DNA of 64,000 nucleotides from Nocardioides zeae (lineage in GTDB: Bacteria > Actinomycetota > Actinomycetes > Propionibacteriales > Nocardioidaceae): positions 124,001 through 188,000 of the forward strand of contig NZ_JAAGXA010000005.1 of the NCBI RefSeq assembly GCF_010686755.1, read 5' to 3'. Below are positions 10,142 to 13,705 of the stretch, in pieces (position 1 is the first letter of the stretch; every line of letters begins with the position of its first letter). The notes under the pieces were generated by a model. The model was not told the DNA's origin. It saw only the letters and a program-made list of their open reading frames with translations, and ran no database searches. The position numbers and the translations under genes were made by a program.

Positions 10142-11299
10142 GTGATCGACATGCAGATCGGCATCTTCAGCGTCGGCGACGTGACGGCGGACCCGACGAC
10201 GGGCCGCACCCCGAGCGAGCACGAGCGCATCAAGGCGACCGTCGCGATCGCGCGGAAGGCCGAGGAGGTCGGCCTGGACGTGTTCGCGACGGGGGAGCAC
10301 CACAACCCGCCGTTCATCTCCTCCAACCCCACGGCGACGCTCGCCTACATCGGGGCCCAGACGGAGCGGCTGATCCTCTCCACGGCCACGACCCTCATCA
10401 CGACGACGGACCCGGTGCTCATCGCGGAGGACTACGCGAAGATCCAGCACCTCACCGACGGTCGGGTGGACCTGATGATGGGCCGCGGCAACACCGGTCC
10501 CGTCTACCCCTGGTTCGGCAAGGACATCCGCAAGGGCATCGAGCTCGCGATCGAGAACTACGCGCTGCTGCGTCGCCTGTGGCGTGAGGACGTCGTCGAC
10601 TGGCAGGGCAAGCACCGCACGCCGCTGCAGGGCTACACCTCGACGCCGCGCCCGCTCGACGGCGTCGCGCCCTTCGTGTGGCACGGCTCGATCCGCAGCC
10701 CCGAGATCGCCGAGCAGGCGGCCTACTACGGCGACGGCTTCTTCCACAACCACATCTTCTGGCCGGCCTCGCACACGCGGCAGATGGTGGCGCTCTACCG
10801 GCGCCGGTTCGAGCACTACGGCCACGGCACGGCGGACGAGGCCATCGTCGGCCTGGGCGGGCAGTTCTTCATGCGGAGGAGCAGCCAGGACGCGGTGCGC
10901 GAGTTCCGGCCCTACTTCGACAACGCGCCCGTCTACGGGCACGGCCCGTCGCTCGAGGACTTCACCTCGCAGACGCCGCTGACCGTCGGCTCGCCGCAGC
11001 AGGTGCTCGAGCGGACGCTGTCGTTCCGTGACTACGCCGGGCACTACCAGCGGCAGCTGTTCCTCGTCGACCACGCCGGCCTGCCGCTGAAGACGGTGCT
11101 CGAGCAGCTCGACCTGCTGGGCGAGATCCTGCCGGAGATGCGGAAGGGCTTCGCCGAGGGCCGCCCGGCCCACGTCCCCGACGCGCCGACGCACGCCTCG
11201 CTCGTCGCCGCCGCCGGCGGGGCGCGCGACACGACGGTGCACGCCACCGACGACGTCACCGGCGCCCGTGCCGAGGACGCCGTGGAGGTGGGGGCGTGA
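10142..11299 (+). CDS. LLM-class flavin-dependent oxidoreductase (CE1758 type)
   Basis: A 385-residue luciferase-like monooxygenase. MQIGIFSVGDVT begins the TIM barrel; FATGEHHNPPF, STATTLITTTDPV and DLMMGRGNTGPVYPWFG are typical LLM segments. The companion gene directly downstream is an NADPH-FMN reductase overlapping by 4 bp, the same pairing as the CE1758/CE1759 family in corynebacteria. The pair should form a two-component system in which the reductase supplies reduced FMN for oxidation of an unknown organic substrate. GAGGAG lies 5 nt before the GTG at 10142; the ATG at 10151 is an alternative start. The last 50 residues are Ala/Thr-rich and probably disordered. Confidence 0.93.
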   Translation: MIDMQIGIFSVGDVTADPTTGRTPSEHERIKATVAIARKAEEVGLDVFATGEHHNPPFISSNPTATLAYIGAQTERLILSTATTLITTTDPVLIAEDYAKIQHLTDGRVDLMMGRGNTGPVYPWFGKDIRKGIELAIENYALLRRLWREDVVDWQGKHRTPLQGYTSTPRPLDGVAPFVWHGSIRSPEIAEQAAYYGDGFFHNHIFWPASHTRQMVALYRRRFEHYGHGTADEAIVGLGGQFFMRRSSQDAVREFRPYFDNAPVYGHGPSLEDFTSQTPLTVGSPQQVLERTLSFRDYAGHYQRQLFLVDHAGLPLKTVLEQLDLLGEILPEMRKGFAEGRPAHVPDAPTHASLVAAAGGARDTTVHATDDVTGARAEDAVEVGA

Positions 11300-11931
11300 C
11301 CCGCCGGATCGCCGTGGTGACGGCGGGCCTCTCCCAGCCGTCCACCACCCGGCTGCTGGCCGACCAGCTCGCCGACGCGGCGGTGGCGGCGCTCGACGCT
11401 GCGGGCGAGGACGTCTCGGTGGACGTCGTCGAGCTGCGTGACGTCGCCCACGCGCTCACCGACCACCTGCTGACGGGCTTCGCCACGGGCGGGCTCGCCG
11501 AGGCCATCGGCGACGTCGCGCGGGCCGACGCCCTCATCGTGGTCACGCCGGTCTTCAGCGCGTCGTACTCCGGTCTGTTCAAGACCTTCTTCGACGTGCT
11601 GGAGCCGGAGACCCTCGCGGGCAAGCCGGTGCTGCTCGCCGCGACCGCCGGCACCGCACGGCACTCGCTCGTGATCGAGCATGCGCTGCGGCCGCTGTTC
11701 GCCTACCTGCGGGCCGTCACCGTGCCCACCGGGGTGTTCGCCGCCACCGAGGACTTCGGCGGCGACAGCCAGCTCGCGGCCCGGGTGCACCGCGCAGCGG
11801 GCGAGCTCGCGGTGCTGGTCGCGGGGGCTCCGACGGTCGCCCCGCGGCGCGCGACGGCGCTGCCCGCCGCCGACGAGGAGTTCGGCGACGTCGTGCCCTT
11901 CGAGGCGCTGCTGCGCGGCGAGGGGCTCTGA
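11296..11931 (+). CDS. NADPH-dependent FMN reductase (CE1759 type)
   Basis: A 211-residue flavodoxin-fold reductase. The N-terminal strand IAVVTAGLSQPSTTRLLADQ matches the phosphate-binding loop of the FMN_red family, and VVTPVFSASYSGLFKTFFD is the family's second flavin-contact segment. Its GTG overlaps the LLM oxidoreductase stop by 4 bp, indicating translational coupling and a joint role as the reductase half of a two-component flavin monooxygenase. The C-terminus continues to within 25 bp of the large palindromes that begin the next region. Confidence 0.93.
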   Translation: MTRRIAVVTAGLSQPSTTRLLADQLADAAVAALDAAGEDVSVDVVELRDVAHALTDHLLTGFATGGLAEAIGDVARADALIVVTPVFSASYSGLFKTFFDVLEPETLAGKPVLLAATAGTARHSLVIEHALRPLFAYLRAVTVPTGVFAATEDFGGDSQLAARVHRAAGELAVLVAGAPTVAPRRATALPAADEEFGDVVPFEALLRGEGL

Positions 11932-11950
11932 AGGTCGAGGCCCTGGTCCG

Positions 11951-11980
11951 CCACTTTCCCCGGTCGACCGGGGAAGGTGG
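11951..11980. repeat. Left outer palindrome of cassette
   Basis: Contains the perfect 20-bp palindrome TTCCCCGGTCGACCGGGGAA (11956-11975); flanking CCACT/GGTGG extend it to 30 bp with one G-T wobble. The same 20-mer recurs at 13141-13160. Confidence 0.9.
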
Positions 11981-12012
11981 CGCTTTGACCATCGATGTTG
12001 ATGGTCAAAGCG
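11981..12012. repeat. Left inner palindrome of cassette, contains the stop codon of the nuclease gene
   Basis: CGCTTTGACCATC and GATGGTCAAAGCG pair around a 6-nt centre. The centre differs from the right copy (13097-13142) by two bases. The TGA stop of the minus-strand nuclease gene (12007-12005) lies inside the right arm. Confidence 0.9.
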
Positions 12013-12967
12013 ACACCTTGGGTGCGCCCATCGGTAGCCCGAGCGCTCGCCGCGTGCGCACGACGAGCCGATCCTGGTCGTCGAGGTCGTGCCACACGTA
12101 CCTGACGAACCCGCAGTCAAGGAGCTCTCGCACTCGATCCTCGCGCACCTTCTCGCGCACGACGGCGTCCGCCGCGCTCTCACCGGGCCGCAGCAACCGG
12201 GTGTACGTGACGGCGCCGTCGAACTCGCCCGCCACACCGTGCTCGGGCCACCAGAGATCGAGCACCGCGACCAGCTCAGATCCGTCGTACACGGGATGTT
12301 GACGGACCGGTGCGGGGATGCCGCCGCGCCAGAGTCTGTAGAAGAGCCGGCTCTCGCCGACGGATCCCGCCAGCGGGCTCGCCAGGCTCGCTGCAACGGC
12401 TGTGTGCAGCGTTCCCGGCCAGTTGCGCGCGTGGGTGACCATCGCGTCGAGCTCCCCGACCGTCATGCGCCCCTCCCGGAGGAGGCTGTCCATCACGACC
12501 AGCGAGCGCTCGGTGTCCGGGATCGTGGACAGCTCGACGGCCGCTCGCGCGGGTACGACGGTGGGCACACCCCCGATGTCCACGACGTGCTCCTCCGGCA
12601 GGACGGCACGGTGGTGGGCCAGCCCTGACTCACGCCGCTCGGAGCGACGCCGCGGATGCGTGAGGTGGACCGTCGACAGATCGAGGCCCCAGTGGCCATC
12701 GGTGTGGAGGACCACCGCCGACGTGTGGGACGCGACGTGACCTACATCGGCCCGCTCGAGGGCCGAGCTGAGCCGGGCCCGGTGCCGGTCCACCTCCGAG
12801 CGCTCCCTCCAGGTGCTGGCCACCGCGTAGGTGCCGTGACGGATGGCGACGATCTCGCCAGCACGGCGGGCGCGGTAGAAGGCCGACGTCGTGTAGCCCG
12901 CGGCGAGGGCGTCGCGCGTGAGGAAGTAGCCCTGCGCTCGGTCGAGGTCTCGGAGTCGTGGATGCAT
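12005..12967 (-). CDS. AbiEi-type wHTH / Vsr-like (DUF559-type) nuclease protein
   Basis: A 320-residue protein. Residues 5-50 look like the AbiEi-type antitoxin winged helix (FLTRDALAAGYTTSAFYRARR, ending RHGTYAV). The C-terminal 120 residues look like a Vsr/DUF559-type PD-(D/E)XK fold: Glu205 (GESRLFYRLW), Asp237 (AVLDLWWP), Glu248 and Asp250 (GEFDG), then KVREDRVRELL and VWHDLDD. No AbiEii-type toxin gene is adjacent, so this is not a classic type IV toxin-antitoxin pair. The gene is bracketed by inverted copies of a two-palindrome unit, and its final Ser-Leu-stop codons lie in the left copy. Relatives are often solitary and multicopy in actinobacteria. Function unknown; a repeat-linked nuclease is an inference. 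Confidence 0.8.
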   Translation of the reverse strand: MHPRLRDLDRAQGYFLTRDALAAGYTTSAFYRARRAGEIVAIRHGTYAVASTWRERSEVDRHRARLSSALERADVGHVASHTSAVVLHTDGHWGLDLSTVHLTHPRRRSERRESGLAHHRAVLPEEHVVDIGGVPTVVPARAAVELSTIPDTERSLVVMDSLLREGRMTVGELDAMVTHARNWPGTLHTAVAASLASPLAGSVGESRLFYRLWRGGIPAPVRQHPVYDGSELVAVLDLWWPEHGVAGEFDGAVTYTRLLRPGESAADAVVREKVREDRVRELLDCGFVRYVWHDLDDQDRLVVRTRRALGLPMGAPKVSL

Positions 12968-13096
12968 GGCCGCGTCGTTCCCGCTCCGCGGTCCGCTCCA
13001 GCGGCGACGTGCCGACCGGTGGATGGCGCGGTTCCCTTCGGCACCTGGGGACGACGAACGGGCCGCCGCGGCGTACCGCGCGTCGCTTGAAACAAC
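12968..13096. other. Upstream region of the nuclease gene inside the cassette
   Basis: 129 bp between the nuclease start and the right palindrome; no gene seen. It should hold the promoter of the nuclease gene, but I see no strong -10/-35 pair. Confidence 0.4.
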
Positions 13097-13142
13097 AACA
13101 CGCCGCTTTGACCATCAACGTTGATGGTCAAAGCGGCGTGTT
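13097..13142. repeat. Right inner palindrome of cassette (46 bp, perfect)
   Basis: The two 23-bp arms are exact reverse complements; the core GACCATCAACGTTGATGGTC is a perfect 20-mer. Apart from two central bases the inner 30 bp equal the left inner palindrome. Confidence 0.93.
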
Positions 13143-13160
13143 CCCCGGTCGACCGGGGAA
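13141..13160. repeat. Right outer palindrome of cassette
   Basis: TTCCCCGGTCGACCGGGGAA, identical to 11956-11975. The order here (inner then outer) is the reverse of the left side, so the two composite units form an inverted pair around the nuclease gene. Confidence 0.93.
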
Positions 13161-13183
13161 AGTGCCGGCCCGAGACGACCCCC

Positions 13184-13705
13184 TCAGTGCTGGTACGTCC
13201 CGTGGAGGATGGCGCGGCCGAGGGTCTTGAACGCGAGGTTGAACGACACCACCGCGGGGCTCGCGGACTCGTCGACGCCGAGCGTCTCCTCGCCCACGGC
13301 GTGCACCACGAAGAAGTACCGGTGCACCTGGTCGCCCTCCGGCGGGGCGGCGCCCATGAAGCCGTGCTCGCCGCCGTCGTTGCGCACGTGGAAGGCGCCC
13401 GCGGGCAGGTCGGCGGCGGCCGCGCCCGTGTCGAGCGACGTCACCGAGGCCGGCAGGTCGACGAGGACCCAGTGCCAGAAGCCGCTGGGCGTGGGCGCGT
13501 CGGGGTCGAAGCAGGTGACGACGTAGGACTTCGTGCCCTCCGGCGCTCCGCTCCAGCTCAGCTGGGGCGAGGTGTTGCCGAGGGCGGCGACCTGGTCGTC
13601 CTTCAGCGGCGCACCGTCGGTGACGTCGGTGCTCGTGACCGTGAACGACGGGACGGCGGGCAGCAGGGTGTAGGGGTCCGGGCTCACCGGGCGATCGAGG
13701 CTCAT
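13184..13705 (-). CDS. YbhB/YbcL family (PEBP) protein
   Basis: A 173-residue phosphatidylethanolamine-binding-protein-fold protein. The ligand-site motifs are present: [28 protein letters not shown] split here by residues of the DPDAP box, the [12 protein letters not shown] strand, [17 protein letters not shown] (GxxPP and H-x-Y) and a C-terminal ILHGTYQH. Bacterial YbhB/YbcL proteins bind small anionic ligands; their roles are poorly defined. The ATG at 13705 is preceded by TAGGGT (reverse strand, 13712-13717) at 6 nt, so it is probably leaderless; it diverges from cobT across only 50 bp. Confidence 0.92.

Follow-up and report, generated by a model that had tools for sequence, protein, structure and literature searches.

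The 64,000-nucleotide stretch of Nocardioides zeae DNA analyzed here (the window; contig NZ_JAAGXA010000005.1, positions 124,001 to 188,000) contains a gene for a predicted nuclease with an AbiEi-like and a Vsr-like half, which, together with palindromes scattered through the genome, would constitute a small selfish DNA element of an apparently undescribed kind. In the window this element spans ~1.2 kb and has the organization P-I-gene-I-P, i.e., a sole open reading frame (ORF) of 320 amino acids between inverted units that each combine an outer palindrome (P) with an inner one (I). We propose that the predicted nuclease cuts or nicks the palindromes and that repair from another copy both spreads and rewrites them, a scheme that, judged from sequence comparison, we hold with somewhat more confidence than doubt. 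The parts of the element are:

11949..11982, unstranded: left outer palindrome P, with its 20-bp core TTCCCCGGTCGACCGGGGAA at 11956-11975
11974..12019, unstranded: left inner palindrome I, core GACCATC..GATGGTC, with the stop codon of the gene inside it
12005..12967, minus strand: the element's only gene, encoding 320 aa, with an AbiEi-like part (residues 1-197) and a Vsr/I-Bth0305I-like predicted nuclease (residues 200-312)
12206..12208, minus strand: codon of residue 254, threonine in the window copy and lysine in the 31 other aligned members
12968..13096, unstranded: 5' end region, from the start codon to the right inner palindrome
13097..13142, unstranded: right inner palindrome I
13134..13167, unstranded: right outer palindrome P, with its 20-bp core at 13141-13160

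The inverted arms measure 68 nt and are 88% complementary, in line with the initial annotation, which had described inverted two-palindrome units on the two sides of the gene and had suggested looking for matching palindromes around its relatives. Such a bracket, scored as an inverted match of at least 20 between the 400-bp flanks, is a general property of the family: in a scan of named genomes, from which the best 80 of 301 relatives were kept (all from Nocardioides or Marmoricola), 71 of the 80 loci are bracketed, as against none of 307 same-geometry pairs shifted along the same loci and 14 of 947 pairings of flanks from different loci. Palindromes with an arm score of at least 10 lie in both flanks at 50 of the 80 loci (0 of 310 controls), and at 43 of the 71 bracketed loci the same search shows one or both units to contain two distinct palindromes. 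A first, partly overlapping locus set gave 24 bracketed loci out of 29 (cross-pair control: 99th percentile 23, maximum 44). Relatives on contigs were collected with a profile built from a 7-row subset of the 32-row family alignment. A class-wide draw gave family matches at E≤1e-3, many of them weak or partial, in 163 of 197 Actinomycetes genomes and 83 of 90 genera; among 30 loci fetched from this draw the bracket is present at all 11 from the genus and at 16 of 19 from other genera (controls: 33 of 870 cross pairs over all 30 loci; 0 of 74 shifted pairs for the 19). The brackets outside the genus (L351-L369) are often of another design, starting AATGATCA[CT]GTT, that is common to several genera.

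The palindromes are also dispersed. A search of the own genome (G000; 4.4 Mb in 33 contigs; other G numbers denote further genomes of the genus) for the 20-bp core of P, as the initial annotation had advised, found 50 exact copies, or 72 with up to two mismatches. Fourteen neighboring pairs, accounting for 28 of the 50 exact copies, are spaced at 62 bp and represent P-I-P, and one pair at 1185 bp is the window element itself; by sequence, the forms present are P-I-gene-I-P, ORF-less derivatives, P-I-P with its 62-bp P-to-P distance, half elements, and single P. P is present in 13 of 147 genus genomes, with high copy numbers in five (G107, 51; G000, 50; G068, 23; G085, 20; G131, 9), four of which show a conspicuous single P pair ~1.2 kb apart: that of G107 encloses an 88% relative of the window protein at the same locus, and the G068 and G085 pairs, which lie at different loci and have their own inner palindromes, surround 35% and 38% relatives. 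The family gene L076 of G131 lies between units that read like some of the dispersed units of that genome. Other palindrome types behave comparably: GATCCCCGGnnnnCCGGGGATC occurs in 38 of the 147 genomes, with up to 36 copies, and its pairs of 1201 and 1231 bp enclose family genes in G012 and G117, and GTCACCGGGTACCGGGTGAC, the bracket type of G103, is matched with up to one mismatch 14 times forward and 11 times reverse in that genome, once in G019, and nowhere in the remaining 145. In an analysis of the gaps among palindromes listed for 13 genomes, made without G071 and G075 (by eye no gap below 3000 bp) and other high-copy genomes such as G022, G063, and G122, the 62-bp spacing is exact in 52 of 56 gaps below 300 bp, and the seven gaps of 300-3000 bp all measure 1184-1231 bp, each around a family member.

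These seven enclosed pairs, together with the 71 of 80 loci against 0 of 307 controls, rule out chance bracketing and contradict a random occurrence of the palindromes relative to the gene family. They refute on statistical grounds the idea that the gene is an orphan AbiE antitoxin or defense gene caught by accident between two repeats resembling repetitive extragenic palindromes (REPs), which we regard as very improbable even though Pfam and PADLOC assign AbiEi alone to the window protein and these repeats abound in the own genome. The two nearest genes on either side belong to the Bac_luciferase, FMN_red, phosphatidylethanolamine-binding protein (PBP), and DBI_PRT families; no AbiEii-like gene is found among them, which also speaks against an orphan antitoxin. 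With no AbiEii nucleotidyltransferase toxin adjoining within this range, an AbiE toxin-antitoxin pair is ruled out.

The dispersed palindrome type is the type that brackets a family gene in most genomes examined, with G095, G045, and G047 as exceptions. At orthologous loci the palindromes vary between species, and the left and right units change together. Across nine ortholog groups with 55 loci (a tenth multi-member group, L096/L108, was excluded) the left unit scores a median of 35 against its own right unit, with 51 of 55 at 20 or above, but a median of 11 against the right unit of an ortholog, with 70 of 494 at 20 or above; at 43 of the 55 loci no other right unit matches the left one as well as its own does. 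At the sites common to G000 and G107 the units vary in linkers and arms with palindromy mostly kept. A comparison of 15 sites common to G150, G107, and G000 (14 dispersed ones and the window locus) shows the palindrome center to be wholly different in one of the three: TCGA forms the middle four bases of P in 27 of 28 palindromes of G107, 20 of 26 of G000, and 3 of 29 of G150, whose other centers read CTGA or, as the complement, TCAG (23) and CTAG (3). The units bracketing the gene match the same species type as the dispersed copies. Point mutations arising independently at this many sites seem unlikely; the simplest reading of this rewriting would be that sequence is copied from site to site. 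The species-wide rewriting, like the dispersed 62-bp-spaced copies and the ORF-less derivatives described below, had not been foreseen in the initial annotation.

Residues 1-197 of the window protein comprise a winged helix-turn-helix and the AbiEi C-terminal fold, and the predicted fold couples this AbiEi-type half to a nuclease domain of Vsr-like fold, with nuclease residues that are conserved in the family. Pfam detects AbiEi_4 only, in 28 of 32 members, an NCBIfam search gave a non-significant match only, and Foldseek alone ranks Vsr at E 0.49 only; the relatives, where named, are mostly called 'type IV toxin-antitoxin system AbiEi family antitoxin domain-containing protein' or 'hypothetical protein'. 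Unlike the gene of a DDE-type insertion sequence, this one shows no DDE transposase domain in Pfam or in its predicted AbiEi plus Vsr-like fold. A phage origin can be set aside, a viral scan having returned eight weak partial matches and nothing more. Under the cut-and-repair scheme, the AbiEi-like half would recognize the palindrome (P and/or I), the Vsr-like half would break or nick it, and repair or recombination would copy units from intact to cut sites in a homing-like drive that would spread full elements, derivatives, and the newest palindrome type. P-I-P may then arise from P-I-gene-I-P via recombination between the two I palindromes, in the manner of solo long terminal repeat (LTR) formation.

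Two genes outside the element adjoin each other in relatives with an empty site:

11296..11931, plus strand: left neighbor, an FMN_red family gene
13184..13705, minus strand: right neighbor, a phosphatidylethanolamine-binding protein family gene

The window locus was sought in 215 genus genomes, all with some match, and the best 30 loci were fetched; among these, a match to the window protein at the window locus is found in G000 and G107 only. The empty-site allele that the initial annotation had called for exists: at eight loci the two neighbors are adjacent, separated by 48-112 bp that contain no gene, and one of these loci (G095) has a single P-type palindrome at that spot. Three more loci hold 353-525 bp of other repeats between the neighbors, and in the remaining ones the right neighbor is far off or not seen. 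At L214, L216, and L222, in other genomes of the genus, the intergenic spot of the window locus is occupied by a tandem array of a different repeat (GCTGGTTGAGCAGCGAGCG...GTGTCGAAACCCGG and variants). In G150, whose flanks are 91-93% identical to those of the window, both units are kept and the ORF is absent; the ORF-less form recurs twice elsewhere in G150, with 143-144 bp between the inner palindrome cores, which makes three copies in all, retaining a stretch that by reading is similar to the distal part of 12968..13096. One site has the ORF-less form in G150 and P-I-P in G107 and G000. A different locus of G150 holds, between G150-type units, a 71% relative of the gene; there the left flank of G107 is a 95% match and has no palindrome, and the right flanks differ, so that it is not a clean empty site. 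Together, the empty sites, the ORF-less derivative, and the different gene locus in a near relative suggest that the element has been mobile on an evolutionary timescale.

In the principal alternative, a transposase-like enzyme would excise units with hairpin ends or copy them into new sites, possibly in single-stranded form at the fork, which has been proposed for RAYTs, and the rewriting at shared sites would be a by-product. We consider it possible but distinctly on the doubtful side. It is consistent with the ORF-less derivatives at three places of G150, with the presence of the gene at different loci in near relatives, and with the hairpins that the units form when folded as single strands (z = -9.3, -9.3, and -14.5). 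However, there is no Y1/HUH domain, a search of the own genome for the Y1 transposase (PF01797) giving no match at E≤1e-3, nor is there a target duplication or a constant insertion motif to be seen. The mapped sites bear on both sides of the question: 15 are common to G000 and G107 (11 of the 12 G107 sites and four more, in a mapping partly guided by G107's own palindromes), which, given that their sequences differ, goes against transposition, and two G000 elements are absent from G107, which would suit it, although both occur in G150 and may be losses.

An operator-like role for the palindromes is improbable in our estimation. Here they would be binding sites of the AbiEi-type half and bidirectional terminators, with the gene as a regulator having sites genome-wide, and AbiEi antitoxins are indeed reported to bind inverted repeats (PMC7319586). 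By crude ORF calling, 18 of the 29 G000 dispersed sites with both neighbors called (35 sites in all) lie between convergent ORFs, as though standing in for, or acting as, bidirectional terminators. By the same calling, however, the sites are mainly at 3' ends and not at promoters, and ORF-less copies, empty sites, the conserved nuclease residues, the placement of units on both sides of the gene, and the fixed 62-bp pairing elsewhere speak against a regulator.

Several observations weigh against the cut-and-repair scheme. The bracket is missing at 9 of 80, 5 of 29, and 3 of 19 loci in the three sets. G095 has 15 palindromes, 14 with a TGCA center, which differ in type from those around its best family gene; G045 has nine GATCCCC-type palindromes and no family match at E≤1e-3 among the 15 of 18 candidates scored; and the bracket type of G047 has one match only. 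Grouped by shared neighbors on both sides, the 80 loci form 33 contexts, the largest with 18 loci, so the gene is mostly inherited in place within ortholog groups. Apart from the window locus, no new insertion with a clean empty site on both flanks was caught, no target-site duplication was seen on reading a few sites, and loss may be as good a reading as gain for the two absences in G107 because both elements are present in G150. Searched as a sequence profile against the PDB, the protein reaches no Vsr structure and nothing significant (AbaSI, E 0.083). Lysine 254 is near-invariant among the 32 aligned members, and with threonine at this position the window copy may be inactive. The palindrome families of G045 and G095, for which no matching family gene was found, would also suit a gene that is a passenger using the palindromes as ends while host repair or another, unseen transposase moves them; we find this rather unlikely, slightly more so than the operator-like role, since across lineages the bracket and the dispersed type change together and the gene inside the seven 1.2-kb pairs is always of this family. 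The initial annotation had envisaged a nuclease-driven mobile or homing cassette whose substrate is its own palindrome; of this, the family link and the empty sites stand, whereas the gene is mainly stationary, with as many as 18 of the 80 named loci sharing one position within an ortholog group.

The EDxHD (Vsr-like) homing endonucleases, I-Bth0305I among them, are phage enzymes that are either free-standing or linked to introns and that, to our knowledge, lack dispersed palindrome families; here, by contrast, the Vsr-like domain is fused to an AbiEi-type half. The ORF-less derivatives with both ends and the shorter P-I-P forms, which recombination between repeats would explain, resemble miniature inverted-repeat transposable elements (MITEs) and solo-LTR-like remnants, but the ends are compound palindromes rather than the terminal inverted repeats of a transposase. 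The AbiE type IV toxin-antitoxin system shares the AbiEi-like N-terminal 197 residues, and differs in that here the AbiEii partner is absent nearby and a nuclease domain is added. A close parallel is the RAYT/TnpA-REP gene with its REP palindromes (the REPtron; compare also REPINs), described in PMC2817692, PMC3116915, and PMC3733652 as a single gene between two inverted palindromic repeats that are dispersed and often form doublets, with orthologs mostly holding position while the repeats change and palindromy and inverted arrangement are kept. The RAYT/REP resemblance raised in the initial annotation holds for the layout with two inverted flanking repeats, for the dispersed repeats with many fixed-spacing pairs, and for a gene that mostly stays put while its palindromes change in a coupled manner; it fails for the enzyme, RAYTs being Y1 HUH transposases with PF01797 as opposed to AbiEi plus Vsr-like, and for the tag, REPs being mostly GTAG-tagged and the regions 11945-12022 and 13090-13175 containing no GTAG, CTAC, CGTC, or GACG. 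Two different palindromes per unit are a further difference. TIRtrons (TIRYT genes) likewise have a gene between inverted repeats, which according to PMC3733652 are partly or wholly self-complementary in some and dispersed in some, but TIRYTs too are Y1 transposases.

Our searches of the open-licence PMC literature for a connection of palindromes, repeats, or mobility to AbiEi, DUF559, or Vsr gave nothing on point, and the element formed by the AbiEi/Vsr gene and its palindromes is likely new. More broadly, we give even weight to an Actinomycetes-wide class of selfish elements in which an AbiEi/Vsr-type nuclease would target its own compound palindromes, with cut-and-copy gene conversion and species-by-species rewriting, in effect a second invention of the REPtron, based on a homing-type nuclease in place of a Y1 transposase. 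The literature cited here connects bacterial palindromic repeats that go with a gene to a single class of enzyme, the Y1 RAYTs; for some repeat classes, such as the CGTC repeats, no driver is known (PMC3733652). If our reading is true, a second, unrelated enzyme class has the same architecture, gene-plus-palindrome systems have evolved more than once, an actinobacterial family so far named only as AbiEi antitoxin domain proteins gains a function, and the genome-wide concerted evolution of tiny repeats becomes testable through the deletion of one gene.

Several further repeats were noted. A single-sequence search of the own genome gave one further relative, L006 (34%; C23:300724-301560), which is flanked by a 46-bp inverted repeat, GTGTAACGCGGTGTCC..., whose sequence is markedly different (score 34). 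GTAACGC-type repeats also lie near the distant relatives L278 and L279. At the G145 loci L056 and L057, P adjoins another repeat, ACACGCCG...CGGCGTGTCGTGCGGG, forming a further compound unit.
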